From: Acidobacteriota bacterium
Lineage (GTDB): Bacteria > Acidobacteriota > Vicinamibacteria > Vicinamibacterales > SCN-69-37
Reading direction: 5' to 3'
DNA length: 64,000 bases
Assembly: GCA_947467605.1 (NCBI GenBank)
Contig: CANIII010000005.1
Location: 124,001 to 188,000, forward strand
Shown here: in pieces, positions 28,241 through 33,814 of the stretch
Layout of the letters: the number at the start of each line of letters is the position of its first letter
How positions within the stretch are numbered: position 1 is the first letter of the stretch
Notes under the pieces: model-generated
The model's input: only the letters and a program-made list of their open reading frames with translations
Told to the model about the DNA's origin: nothing
The model's database searches: none
Made by a program: the position numbers and the translations under genes

Positions 28241-29413
<1,173 letters not shown>

Positions 29414-29447
29414 CTAGCCTATCGGAAAGTCACACGCGTGTTCCGGC

Positions 29448-29453
29448 TATACT
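29448..29453 (+). promoter_or_regulatory. -10 box of ddl
   Basis: TATACT lies 13 nt before the GTG start of ddl, so a transcript would begin only about 7 nt upstream of the start codon. No -35 consensus is visible at 17 nt. Confidence 0.4.
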
Positions 29454-29466
29454 GTCGGCCACACTC

Positions 29467-30648
29467 GTGAAGCGACTTCGTGTAGGCGTGCTGTACGGCG
29501 GGCGGTCCAGTGAACACGAGATTTCTCTCGCGTCGGCTGCGGCGGTCTTTGCCAATCTCGATCGACAGAAGTACGAACCCATTCCGCTGAAGATTGAAAA
29601 AGACGGACGTTGGGTGTTGGCCGACCGCGCACCATCAGCGGCCTCCGCGGCGGAAGTCATCGATCAGATGCGTGGTGAGGCCGCGCGCGTGCGTGGCGGC
29701 CGCGAGGTCATCCTGCCCGCGCGCCCCGGCGCCGGCTCCGACACGCTGATCCTGCTCGACCGCCGCGAAGCGCGCACGCGTGAAACGCACGGCGAAGATG
29801 TCGAAGCGGTCACCAACGTCACCGGCCTCGGCCTCGATGTGATCTTTCCCGTTCTGCATGGACCGCTCGGCGAAGACGGCACGATTCAAGGCCTCCTCGA
29901 ACTCGCCAACATCCCGTACGTCGGCTGCGGCGTACTCGCCTCGGCCGTCGGCATGGACAAGGCGATCATGAAGATCCTGTTCCGCCACAAAGGCCTGCGC
30001 GTCGCCGACTTTGAAGTGGTATGGCGACGAGAACTCCAGTCCGATCGCGCCGGCGTGCGGGCGCGGATTGAAAAGGCGCTGCCCTATCCCGTGTTCGTGA
30101 AACCCGCGAACATGGGCTCAAGCGTCGGCATTTCAAAAGTGAAGTCGGCGGCGGCACTCGATGCCGCGCTCGACCTAGCCGCGTCCTTCGATCGAAAACT
30201 CATCGTCGAAGCCGGCATCCCCGACGCGCGAGAGATCGAATGCGCCGTCCTCGGCAACGACATCGTGGATGCGTCCGTGCCCGGTGAGATCGTCCCCGCG
30301 AATGAGTTCTACGACTACGACGCGAAATACATCAGCGGCGGATCCAAGACCGTGTTGCCTGCGAAACTGACCGACAAAGTTGCAGCGGAAGTGCGCAAGC
30401 AGGCCATCGCCGCGTTCGAAGCGATCGATGGCGCCGGTCTCGCGCGCGTGGATTTCCTCGTGACGAAATCGACCAACAAAATTTTCGTCAACGAAGTGAA
30501 CACGCTGCCAGGATTCACAACGATCAGCATGTATTCGCAGTTGTGGCAGGCATCCGGCGTCGACTATCCCACGCTCGTTGATCGCTTGGTGACGCTCGCC
30601 ATCGAACGTCACAACGACAAACAAGACGTCAGAACAAGCTTTTTTTGA
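29467..30648 (+). CDS. ddl: D-alanine--D-alanine ligase
   Basis: An ATP-grasp ligase of 393 residues that makes D-Ala-D-Ala for peptidoglycan. Key parts: VGVLYGGRSSEHEISLASA at the N-terminus, VLHGPLGEDGTIQGLLELANIPYVG, PVFVKPANMGSSVGISKV (ATP-binding loop), DAREIECAVLGND, and the Mg-binding VNEVNTLPGFTTISMYSQLW at the end. It contains an insertion (about 60-105) typical of the longer Ddl subtype. I choose the GTG at 29467 (MKRLRVGVLYGG); an ATG at 29410 would overlap the promoter. The C-terminal end is extended by a short charged tail. Confidence 0.95.
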   Translation: MKRLRVGVLYGGRSSEHEISLASAAAVFANLDRQKYEPIPLKIEKDGRWVLADRAPSAASAAEVIDQMRGEAARVRGGREVILPARPGAGSDTLILLDRREARTRETHGEDVEAVTNVTGLGLDVIFPVLHGPLGEDGTIQGLLELANIPYVGCGVLASAVGMDKAIMKILFRHKGLRVADFEVVWRRELQSDRAGVRARIEKALPYPVFVKPANMGSSVGISKVKSAAALDAALDLAASFDRKLIVEAGIPDAREIECAVLGNDIVDASVPGEIVPANEFYDYDAKYISGGSKTVLPAKLTDKVAAEVRKQAIAAFEAIDGAGLARVDFLVTKSTNKIFVNEVNTLPGFTTISMYSQLWQASGVDYPTLVDRLVTLAIERHNDKQDVRTSFF

Positions 30649-30657
30649 TTTTTGCGC

Positions 30658-30686
30658 TTGACTCTCGTACGACTCGTCCCTAATCT
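30658..30686 (+). promoter_or_regulatory. Sigma-70 promoter of a short transcription unit
   Basis: TTGACT (30658-30663), a 17-nt spacer and TAATCT (30681-30686), just behind the ddl stop. Initiation is expected near 30693. It is among the best -35/-10 matches in the window. Confidence 0.65.
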
Positions 30687-30914
30687 ACATCTTGCGTGAA
30701 GATCAACGGCTCATCCTACTTGTTGGGTACAGGGTCGCAAAAAACCAACAACGTAGCACGCACAGTTTGCCAGGCGTTTGAGCGCGGAACTCGTCGCGAT
30801 CTGCCTGCCACGAAGCGCGGACGACGCACGTGCACGTTGACGTGCCGGTAGGCAGCGACGCTGCGGTGCGGAGCGCGTCCTCGCACATACCACCTGGAAG
30901 GGGGGGACAATACA

Positions 30915-30965
30915 ATGGCGAAGAAGACTGCCAAGAAGGCGAAGAAGGGCGGCAAGAAGCGGTAA
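30915..30965 (+). CDS. Tiny lysine-rich peptide (16 residues)
   Basis: A short ORF encodes MAKKTAKKAKKGGKKR, in which 9 of 16 residues are Lys or Arg. It is preceded by GGAAGGGGGG with 8 nt spacing, a strong purine-rich ribosome site, and followed 23 nt later by an intrinsic terminator. The composition resembles histone H1-like or nucleoid-binding tails and ribosome-binding basic peptides. I recognise no family and do not assign a function. The stretch is so repetitive in AAG codons that a chance ORF cannot be excluded, but the promoter, ribosome site and terminator context argues for expression. Confidence 0.5.
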   Translation: MAKKTAKKAKKGGKKR

Positions 30966-30988
30966 CTCGCTTTTGCCCGCACGAAGAG

Positions 30989-31018
30989 AAAGGGGGCGCT
31001 TCCGCGCCCCCTTTTTTT
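30989..31018 (+). terminator. Strong intrinsic terminator after the tiny ORF
   Basis: AAAGGGGGCGC (30989-30999), loop TTCC, GCGCCCCCTTT (31004-31014), then T residues to 31018. It is an 11-bp GC-rich stem with seven T in a row. It also separates this unit from the convergent HEAT-repeat gene ending at 31021. Confidence 0.9.
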
Positions 31019-31020
31019 AT

Positions 31021-33114
31021 TCAGAAACTCACACCGTCCCAGACGCGAATCCGATCAATCACATCCCATTGCGTCAGTAAGTCCACGATCTCGATCCCGC
31101 GCACGACGTCACCAAAGACCGCGTACTTACCGTCGAGATGCGGCGCGGGCGCGAGCGCGATGAAGAACTGGCTGCCGCCTGAGTCTGCGCCATCGAGGGC
31201 CATGCCGACCGTGCCGCGGCGATAGGAAATCGCACTCAGTTCGTCGCGCAGCGTATATCCCGGTCCGCCTTCCCCATCGCCGCGATCATCGCCCGACTGC
31301 ACCACAAAACCTGGCACAACACGATGGATGCGCATGCCATTGAAGTAGCCCTTACGCGCCAACGTGACGAAACTCTGCACGGCCAACGGCGCATCCACCA
31401 CGTTCAACTCGATTTCGATCGTGCCGTACTTGGTCTCAATGAAGGCATGCGGCGAATAGGGTGGCCGCAGGAGCGCCGGCGACTCGTAATAGTCCGCCGG
31501 ATACCGGAGCGGTGCGGGGCGTTTCGGCTCAGCCGTCTTTTCGCCGAGGCCGTGCAGGAGTGCCGCTGCGCGGACACGAATCGACCAGTCGCCATCGGCC
31601 AGTGCGGCATGCAGCGTCGATGACGCGGCCTCGCTGCCAAGCTTCGCCAACGCGTCAATCGCCGCCGCACGAGCCGACGGGTTCACATCTGAGACACCAC
31701 GCGTGTACGCCGCGGCGATGCGCTCGGCGGCACCCGCCATCCTGCGCTCGCCCACGAGTCGCGCGGCCGTGCCACGCACGACAAAGTCCGGAGTATCAAG
31801 CGCAGCGAGCAGGCGCGCATCCACATCCGGCGCGCCGACCTTGGCCAGCGCCTCGAGCGCCGGCGCCTGCACGCGCGCATCCGTCTCGGCCGCGAGTTCC
31901 AACACCGCCGCCCGCACCCGATCCGGTTCCATCCTCGCCAACACGCCGGCCAGCGCGGCACGGACCGACCAATCCTTGTCGACACTGAGTCCGGACACGA
32001 CCAGCAGGAAGGCGTCGGCATCAACCTTGGCCGCTGCGGCAAGCGCGGCCGCGCGAAGCGGCGCCCACTTGTGACTGAAGAGGTCCGCCAATATGTCGAA
32101 CGCTTTCGCGTCGCCAATGTCCCCGAGCGCCACGACGGTCTCGAGCGAAAGATTCGGCGGCGTCGCCTGATCATCAAGCACTCGCTGAAGCACCGGAATG
32201 GACTCGGCATCTTTCAGCGCCGCCAGCAGGCGAACGGCGGCCACACGGAGGCGAACGTCAGCCGACCGGCGTTGCACGATCGCCCGCGCCGCGGTGATCC
32301 CGCCCGTGTCTTTGTAGGTACCGAGTCCCCGCAGCGCCGCGACCGGTGTGTTCACGCCGTCGACGTTGAGCAACAACTTCAAGGGCGCGGCCGCGCGCGT
32401 GTCGCCGACGCGTTGCAGGGCGACCGCGACCGGCCACCACGATGACACCGGCTGGCCGGACGCATCGAGCACGACCGTGGCCAGCGCATCAAACTGACGG
32501 AGCCTCGCTAGCGCGAGCACCGCAGCGCGGCACACTTCAATGTCATCCGCCATCGGCCAGCGCTCATCGTCAGGTGCGAGCGCGGCGATCTGTCCGCGAC
32601 AGCCGGCGGCCAGCGTGCCGATGGCTGTGCCAGCGGACGTGACGGCGTGCGAGGCGGACGGGCCGGCGGGCGGCTCGCCAATGAGAGCGAGCGCGTCGAT
32701 CGCGTGAGCGCGCACGGCGAGGTCGGCATCGCCAAGCGCGGCGATCAGCGCATCCGTGGCGGACGCGGCGTGCGATAGACCAAGAGCAAATGCCGCCGAT
32801 GCACGCACGTCCTTGTCGGTGTCGCCCAGCGCGCCGACCAGTGCAGGAATACCGGCCGCCATACCCACCCGGCCGACAGCCATCGCCGCGCGGCGCCGCA
32901 CACGCGGATCGGTGTCACTGATGAGCGTGAGCAAACTCGATCCAGCCCCGTCATCGAGCCATCGCTGATCTTCGAGTCTCAGGATCGTGCCCACGCGTCG
33001 GTCGAGCGAGAGGACGATGGGCGGTGGTGCCACGGTGACCGGCGCGGGCACGGGTGCAGACGCGCATGCGGGCAACGCAGCGAGCGCGAAGAGGATCCAA
33101 CGAGGTCGGCGCAT
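31021..33114 (-). CDS. HEAT-repeat lipoprotein with C-terminal cyclophilin (PPIase) domain
   Basis: A 697-residue protein with a lipoprotein-like signal (MRRPRWILFALAALPAC, lipobox LPAC). Residues about 60-540 are tandem HEAT-like alpha repeats, e.g. DPRVRRRAAMAVGRVGMAAG and DKDVRASAAFALGLSHA. From about 556 a cyclophilin-type peptidyl-prolyl isomerase domain starts (FIETKYGTIEIEL). It retains the catalytic FNGMRIHRVVPGFVVQSGD region and GSQFFIAL; the cyclosporin Trp position is His (PAPHLDGKYAVFG). It is therefore an envelope-anchored folding factor with a long protein-binding solenoid. The start at 33114 is chosen for the signal peptide; in-frame sequence upstream crosses the promoter of the divergent kinase gene. 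Confidence 0.85.
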   Translation of the reverse strand: MRRPRWILFALAALPACASAPVPAPVTVAPPPIVLSLDRRVGTILRLEDQRWLDDGAGSSLLTLISDTDPRVRRRAAMAVGRVGMAAGIPALVGALGDTDKDVRASAAFALGLSHAASATDALIAALGDADLAVRAHAIDALALIGEPPAGPSASHAVTSAGTAIGTLAAGCRGQIAALAPDDERWPMADDIEVCRAAVLALARLRQFDALATVVLDASGQPVSSWWPVAVALQRVGDTRAAAPLKLLLNVDGVNTPVAALRGLGTYKDTGGITAARAIVQRRSADVRLRVAAVRLLAALKDAESIPVLQRVLDDQATPPNLSLETVVALGDIGDAKAFDILADLFSHKWAPLRAAALAAAAKVDADAFLLVVSGLSVDKDWSVRAALAGVLARMEPDRVRAAVLELAAETDARVQAPALEALAKVGAPDVDARLLAALDTPDFVVRGTAARLVGERRMAGAAERIAAAYTRGVSDVNPSARAAAIDALAKLGSEAASSTLHAALADGDWSIRVRAAALLHGLGEKTAEPKRPAPLRYPADYYESPALLRPPYSPHAFIETKYGTIEIELNVVDAPLAVQSFVTLARKGYFNGMRIHRVVPGFVVQSGDDRGDGEGGPGYTLRDELSAISYRRGTVGMALDGADSGGSQFFIALAPAPHLDGKYAVFGDVVRGIEIVDLLTQWDVIDRIRVWDGVSF

Positions 33115-33141
33115 GAGATTCTCAATGGTAGCCCACGCGAT

Positions 33142-33150
33142 TGGTATACT
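33142..33150 (+). promoter_or_regulatory. Extended -10 promoter of the deoxynucleoside kinase gene
   Basis: TGGTATACT is a TGn-extended -10 element. It ends 10 nt before the GTG at 33161, so the transcript would have about a 4-nt leader. Confidence 0.5.
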
Positions 33151-33160
33151 TTGGCCTCGC

Positions 33161-33814
33161 GTGGACTTCCGATACCTCGCCATCGAAGGGCCGATCGGAC
33201 TCGGCAAGACCGCGCTGGCCGAGCGCCTCGGCGCGCGTCTCGACGCCACGGTGGTCCTCGACGAGGCGGAGAATCCATTTCTCGACGCGTTCTACGAGGG
33301 TCGGCCGGGCGCCGCCTTCCAGTCGCAGCTCTTCTACACACTGCAGCGGCATCGCCAGCAGCTGTCGCTGCGACAGGGTGACCTCTTCAGCCAGACCGTC
33401 GTCGCCGACTACCTCTTTGATCGCGACCGGATTTACGCGTTCATGAACCTCGACGACAACGAATTGTTCATCTATCAACGCCTGTACGACCTGCTCGCCC
33501 GGGACCTGTCGGCGCCGGACCTGGTCATCTACCTGCAGACACCGACCGATCTGCTGCGCAAGCGCATCAAGGAGCGCGCGCGGCGTCAGGCAGAGCCAGC
33601 CGCCAATGTGCCCGGCGACGAGTACCTCGCCGAGCTCAATGAGGCGTACAACCATTTCTTCTTCCACTACACCGCGACACCACTGCTCGTCGTCGAGACG
33701 ACGCAGTTCGATCTGTCCTGGGGCGATGACGCCCTCGACGACCTGCTCAAGCAGGTGCACTCGATGACGCACGGCACGCGGTACTACGTGCCGCGGACCA
33801 GCGGCGGCGCGTGA
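33161..33814 (+). CDS. Deoxynucleoside kinase (deoxyguanosine/deoxyadenosine kinase type)
   Basis: A 217-residue deoxynucleoside kinase that phosphorylates deoxynucleosides for nucleotide salvage. The P-loop is EGPIGLGKTALAERL. Substrate-site elements include FQSQLFYTLQRHRQQL, VADYLFDRDRIYA (DR motif) and YDLLARDLSAPDLVIYLQTP. The LID region RKRIKERARRQ follows. The GTG at 33161 (MDFRYLAIEGPIG) gives the standard length; an ATG at 33125 would overlap the promoter. The substrate preference cannot be read. It heads the run to accD, folC and lptD. Confidence 0.85.
   Translation: MDFRYLAIEGPIGLGKTALAERLGARLDATVVLDEAENPFLDAFYEGRPGAAFQSQLFYTLQRHRQQLSLRQGDLFSQTVVADYLFDRDRIYAFMNLDDNELFIYQRLYDLLARDLSAPDLVIYLQTPTDLLRKRIKERARRQAEPAANVPGDEYLAELNEAYNHFFFHYTATPLLVVETTQFDLSWGDDALDDLLKQVHSMTHGTRYYVPRTSGGA

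Follow-up and report, generated by a model that had tools for sequence, protein, structure and literature searches.

The unit analysed here is located at positions 30649-31018 of the window, i.e. of the whole 64-kb stretch of DNA that was examined, with the gene ddl on its upstream side and a convergent HEAT-repeat/peptidyl-prolyl isomerase (PPIase) gene on its downstream side. The promoter TTGACT-17-TAATCT, the Shine-Dalgarno (SD) element, the 16-residue reading frame and the terminator that were proposed in the first-pass annotation have all been located in the sequence; they are listed below, together with the other features, in window coordinates.

29410-30648, + strand: ddl (D-Ala-D-Ala ligase), upstream neighbour, conserved by synteny (context, outside the unit)
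30649-30728, + strand: conserved promoter and first transcribed block, the R2 region (R2 match in its own genome, E 6e-14)
30658-30663, + strand: -35 element TTGACT, read in the sequence, with a 17-nt spacer to the -10 element
30681-30686, + strand: -10 element TAATCT, read in the sequence
30716-30756, + strand: species-specific hairpin CUACUUGUUGG/CCAACAACGUAG (z -2.2)
30800-30913, + strand: conserved structured mid block with covariation, running into the SD element (cmsearch with model R1, 49.8 bits, E 1.2e-11)
30897-30906, + strand: SD element GAAGGGGGGG, the same string as in 46 of 75 ORF2 copies
30915-30965, + strand: micro-ORF MAKKTAKKAKKGGKKR, 16 codons, ATG at 30915 and stop at 30963-30965, equivalent to ORF2 of two-ORF relatives
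30989-31018, + strand: intrinsic terminator T2, AAAGGGGGCGC-UUCC-GCGCCCCCUUU-UUUU (stem 30989-31014, then T to 31018; fold energy z -5.4, matched by 0 of 200 shuffles)
31021-33249, - strand: HEAT-repeat/peptidyl-prolyl isomerase gene, convergent downstream neighbour, conserved by synteny (context, outside the unit)

The R2 region contains the invariant TAATCTACA (46-sequence alignment A5), and strong transcription of the unit is plausible, because the promoter is close to the consensus. An SD variant, GAAAGGGGGG, occurs in 13 further copies of the 75 ORF2 copies. The window peptide MAKKTAKKAKKGGKKR has 9 K/R among its 16 residues, so that over half of it is positively charged.

In most relatives, two ORFs follow one another in tandem, and each is preceded by a leader and usually followed by a terminator of its own. 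The commonest arrangement runs from the promoter through leader 1, AGGAGGA and ORF1 to terminator 1, and on through the mid block, GAAGGGGGGG and ORF2 to terminator 2; in the source genome, ORF1 and terminator 1 have been lost, which leaves a reduced, one-ORF unit. ORF1 is missing in the window's family; L009, L010, L019 and L020 retain terminator 1 without ORF1, and two of these terminators are also detected by script. Decayed forms of ORF1 are found in L029, L036 and L040, with the start ACG in place of ATG in L029 and L036, and L033 has ORF1 only. A terminator is detected by script after 71 of the 74 ORF2 copies, and between the two ORFs in 36 of the 52 two-ORF loci.

Distribution and genomic context of the unit

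Homologues in related genomes, on which the first-pass annotation had staked its proposal, are present: a search with R2, a sequence-only model of the promoter and the first transcribed block, has found the unit in 107 of the 125 sampled genomes (~86%) of the order (Vicinamibacterales-type Acidobacteriota), with one copy in each of the positive genomes and a single exception with two. In other orders of the class, 2 of 24 genomes are matched; for both denominators, 20 genomes outside the listed rows have been counted as other orders of the class. In family f9 of the order, R2 finds nothing in the 11 sampled genomes (G032, G051, G059, G100, G102, G106, G108, G115, G130, G144 and G148), for which we offer the reading that the unit has been lost or has strongly diverged. 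In a separate sample of the phylum outside the class, no genome has the unit; the one R2 match, in G344, is judged to be due to chance, because no basic micro-ORF is located there.

By blastn against 59 relatives, nearly all of the relatives match the unit, in the form of two blocks, one that spans the promoter and the start of the transcript and one that spans the ORF and the terminator. In 257 Gb of genome sequence from bacteria and archaea, the exact promoter pattern TTGACN{10,11}CTCRNCCNTAATCTACA is found in 82 stretches; with the relatives added, 89 unique units result, and one or two MAKK...K[KR] ORFs lie downstream in nearly all of them. The neighbourhood of ddl in relatives, suggested for inspection by the earlier annotation, has the order ddl - unit - PPIase in nearly all loci with enough flanking sequence; locus L070 retains both neighbours, but has the unit in inverted orientation with respect to them. 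Recognisable homologues from another order of the class (L147 and L148) keep the promoter, the strong SD element, the peptide and the terminator, and encode MAKKKAAAKKKATKVTKKKAAKKK and MAKKKRAKKAAKKTAKKAAKKKK. Phage and plasmid records contain no blastn match to the unit, and an origin from such elements is rejected on this ground and on that of the chromosomal synteny.

Several records with the unit (L042, L059, L061, L068, L090 and L112) bear titles such as Cyanobacteria, Acidimicrobiia, Bifidobacterium breve or Ca. Sulfopaludibacter, yet their unit is of the Vicinamibacterales type; these metagenome-assembled genomes look mislabelled. Genome G044 has the promoter and leader a second time (L150:550-1100, corresponding to G044:C2:92950-93500; R2 E 6e-14), directly upstream of a reading frame that is FtsZ-like by eye, with no micro-ORF there, a situation that would arise if a copy of the promoter-leader module had been placed before a new gene.

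Coding selection on the micro-ORFs

Between similar ORF2 sequences, the differences at codon positions 1, 2 and 3 amount to 223, 382 and 1212, and between similar ORF1 sequences to 124, 203 and 509, while the two ORFs of one locus are separated by 140 synonymous and 24 nonsynonymous codon differences; all of these counts are descriptive and carry no tests, because the sequence pairs are not independent. The two peptides of a locus are identical in 17 of 53 within-locus pairs, a pattern that may reflect either concerted evolution or shared selection, and the identity of ORF1 and ORF2 peptides is higher within loci (0.88) than between loci (0.70; 0 of 300 permutations), which points to ORF1 and ORF2 evolving in concert. 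Loci L021, L049 and L099 are examples in which the two peptides are often identical despite many synonymous codon differences.

Across 141 homologous ORFs, the peptide varies in length from 14 to 65 residues, with most members at 14-20, and its composition is constant: K, A, G, R, T, V and P make up almost all of it, K and R together have a mean share of 55%, and the 141 peptides contain 10 S and 2 C overall, with no D, no E, no aromatic residue and no bulky hydrophobics. A type I toxin, which would require a hydrophobic, membrane-spanning peptide, is rejected on this composition, about half of which is K/R.

Translation of the ORFs and selection on the peptide are supported by the third-position substitutions, by the synonymous differences between ORF1 and ORF2, by the variable length at constant composition and by the remote homologue. 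The unit is a real, previously unlisted gene; annotation pipelines normally skip genes of such small size.

Structured leaders of ORF1 and ORF2

The fold of the mid block consists of the hairpin UGCC-GGUA-GGCA, located within the helices CGUUG/CGACG, GCAC/GUGC and GGAC/GUCC. The model was made from clades that align well and was then run on all copies; the resulting covariance model R1, whose 19 training sequences include none from the window's family, detects 65 copies in 71 sources, the window copy among them with the score listed above. In the fitted alignment, 84.9% of the cells are paired, and double changes are seen in 19 of 20 pairs and in all four helices, with 159 double-changed cells as against 50 in shuffled and 21-44 in slid controls; these pair counts are inflated, because the alignment has been fitted to the model, and the unfitted training alignment shows a smaller effect in the same direction. 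When the mid block is aligned with MAFFT alone, RNAalifold returns only 6 pairs. Covariation, which the first-pass annotation had also made decisive for its hairpins, is present and is strong in the mid block, where helices that covary lie before the start codon, as would be expected of a structured cis-regulatory leader.

The fold that is supported by covariation is not the minimum free energy (MFE) fold: for 30785-30913, the MFE fold has -50.8 kcal/mol and the covariation-supported alternative has -48.4, i.e. 2.4 higher, so that the two are near-isoenergetic. The hairpin at 30792-30860 that was initially proposed is indeed the MFE fold, but covariation favours the other fold of this stretch. 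The stability of the mid block is no greater than that of shuffled sequences (z -0.6) and has been dropped as evidence; since the MFE does not go beyond the shuffles and the rival folds are nearly equal, the case for a conserved structure rests on covariation and not on energy. Sequestration of the SD element by an upstream YCC has a pairing probability of 0.61, as against 0.65 in shuffled upstream sequence, and is unsupported.

Leader 1 of the two-ORF relatives fits an H-type pseudoknot, with the stems S1 (GGUGG/CCACC) and S2 (GCUCAGC/GCUGAGC); 91.2% of its cells are paired, as against 28-49% in slid controls, and 11 cells are double-changed, as against 2.9 in shuffled ones. We regard this support as moderate, because much of S2 is conserved as sequence. 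In L147, a pairing equivalent to S2 is formed from a different sequence, ACUCAAAC/GUUUGAGU, inside a longer nested stem, and S1 is broken in several clades (L041 and L054 types). In the window, S1 and S2 are not recognisable, and the hairpin at 30716-30756 occupies the place of the pseudoknot, ORF1 and terminator 1 of the relatives. This hairpin, put forward at first as a leader element, is thermodynamically plausible (z -2.2), but is missing even in the congener G002 and in other relatives, so that it does not stand as a conserved element.

As was suspected from the sequence at the outset, the unit belongs to no known RNA family: at the gathering threshold of Rfam 15, the window and 15 relatives give 0 matches, and sub-threshold matches only. 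Together with coding selection and covariation, this agrees with the earlier view of an undescribed unit that has a coding micro-ORF behind a structured RNA, and we have found no description of such a unit in the literature on Acidobacteria or Vicinamibacter.

Interpretation of the unit

On the basis of the transcription-unit anatomy, the coding selection, the conserved RNA structure and the order-wide single-copy conservation, all of which have been demonstrated computationally, we consider the unit to be, with good probability, a stand-alone gene for an H1-tail-like polycationic micropeptide under structured leaders. The micropeptide gene under a structured leader that the first-pass annotation envisaged was right in outline; the conserved hairpins differ from those it named, and the window copy is reduced to one ORF. 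From a conserved sigma-70-type promoter, a short transcript would run to an intrinsic terminator; in the two-ORF form, ORF1 would be preceded by a pseudoknot and ORF2, past terminator 1, by a covarying multi-helix hairpin, with near-identical Lys/Ala peptides as products, and the source genome has kept only the second ORF and its leader. The peptide would be a disordered polycation, most likely one that coats or condenses a polyanion, i.e. chromosomal DNA, rRNA/ribosomes or polyphosphate. We infer that the leaders, which end beside the SD sites, control translation and most likely tune it to the need for the peptide, and that terminator 1 sets the ORF1:ORF2 ratio through the amount of ORF2 that is made.

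Binding of the peptide to DNA, RNA or polyphosphate is suggested by its composition, by the sub-threshold similarity to Hc2, by the tail of a SWIB-domain protein and by the literature on AlgP. The longest members have a weak HMM similarity to Hc2/H1-like models (E 2e-4 to 1.5e-3, under the curated cut-offs); with the HC2 model (PF07382), the best scores are 21.5 bits for a 52-aa relative and 19.1 bits for a 65-aa relative, below the curated cut-off of 40 bits, in a scan that covered the longer relatives, since the 16-aa window peptide is below the 20-residue limit. A Lys/Ala-rich, low-complexity sequence with a variable repeat number is shared with HC2. The histone H1-like nucleoproteins, i.e. 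Chlamydia Hc2 (PF07382/NF038052), the Burkholderia-type proteins (NF038053) and the KPAA C-terminal tail of AlgP, are similarly Lys/Ala-rich and repeat-like and vary in size by repeat number, whereas the micropeptides mostly have 14-20 residues and no other domain, and occur as two tandem copies with their own structured leaders in an order-specific synteny. To our knowledge, H1-tail-like polycations have not been described as tandem genes of 14-20 residues that have their own covarying leaders across an order. In the source genome, a SWIB/MDM2-domain protein (G000:C10, L007:1480-1720; PF02201, E 2e-13) has an N-terminal Lys-rich tail, MAKKAAVKKTAKKATKAAKPAKKA, with a composition like that of the micropeptide, but joined to a folded domain; the first-pass annotation considered a nucleoid- or ribosome-binding peptide, and this tail and the composition favour nucleic-acid binding. 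A 16-mer of this charge (9 K/R) may be a weak binder of polyanions of any kind. For the H1-like AlgP, in vitro DNA binding by peptides from its KPAA tail and an association of the protein with polyP granules have been published (PMC9239181).

The conservation of the 5' block and the mid block as RNA is also what would be expected of a dual-function RNA, i.e. a structured transcript that acts in trans as a regulatory RNA, with the peptide as a separate second product; conservation of the 5' block persists in copies whose ORF1 is decayed or absent (L023, L029, L036 and those of the window's family), and the nearly invariant ACAUCU.GURUGA...CUCAG.CCA of this block is a possible site for the binding of a protein or an RNA. 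We consider this unlikely, given the strong coding selection and the location of the structures directly before the SD sites, in the manner of cis-elements. Dual-function sRNAs that encode small peptides are a general class of short, structured transcripts with their own promoter, a terminator and one micro-ORF; the unit differs from them in that it has no known trans target, has two ORFs with separate leaders and is dominated by coding selection. A micro-protein that is associated with the ribosome or its assembly, like the tiny basic ribosomal proteins, and whose leaders are autoregulatory as ribosomal-protein leaders are, would agree with the small, basic, single-copy product, the near-consensus promoter, the structured leaders by the SD sites and the pseudoknot. 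The autoregulatory leaders of ribosomal proteins and other pseudoknotted cis-regulatory leaders of Rfam indeed share with the unit a structured 5' region, a pseudoknot that ends by the SD element and a basic product, but the unit, in the window and 15 relatives, matches no such family at the gathering score. The fourfold length range (14-65 aa) with repeat-like insertions argues against a ribosomal protein, which would dock precisely, so that we hold this reading to be quite improbable.

The succession of Lys-codon runs and an intrinsic terminator, seen in nearly every copy, brings to mind a leader-peptide attenuator, in which charged tRNA-Lys is sensed and the terminator controls a downstream gene. 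Here, no co-directional gene is located past T2, and attenuation of a neighbour is rejected because a convergent gene comes next, both in the window and in nearly all relatives; the gene orientation largely refutes the idea, and the controlled gene could only be ORF2 itself. As the ORF length and the number of Lys codons also vary freely, and the terminator stem of the window has no overlap with the ORF, we give an attenuator hardly any chance.

Returning to the micropeptide gene, an extended version of this explanation is speculative, and we put it forward as a possibility that we would rather doubt than expect: the unit may be a previously unknown, class-wide gene for chromatin/RNA condensation, in which paired minimal H1-tail micropeptides are made from one transcript, two unrelated structured leaders would respond to unbound peptide, or to the polyanion that it targets, and thereby set the polycation level, and the ORFs evolve in concert. 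Most of an order of bacteria that abound in soil and water has kept the unit in a single chromosomal position. Should the micropeptide explanation be right, the products of the unit would be among the smallest conserved basic proteins known, its leaders would add two new cis-regulatory RNA structures, and its members, with H1-like tails that range from 14 to 65 residues, would serve as a natural series for the study of the charge and length that nucleic-acid condensation needs. At the locus L035 (L035:1695-1853), a repeat protein of 52 residues, MAKTVAKKAAVKKAAPKK...KKGCKAC, with two cysteines close to its end, takes the place of ORF2.
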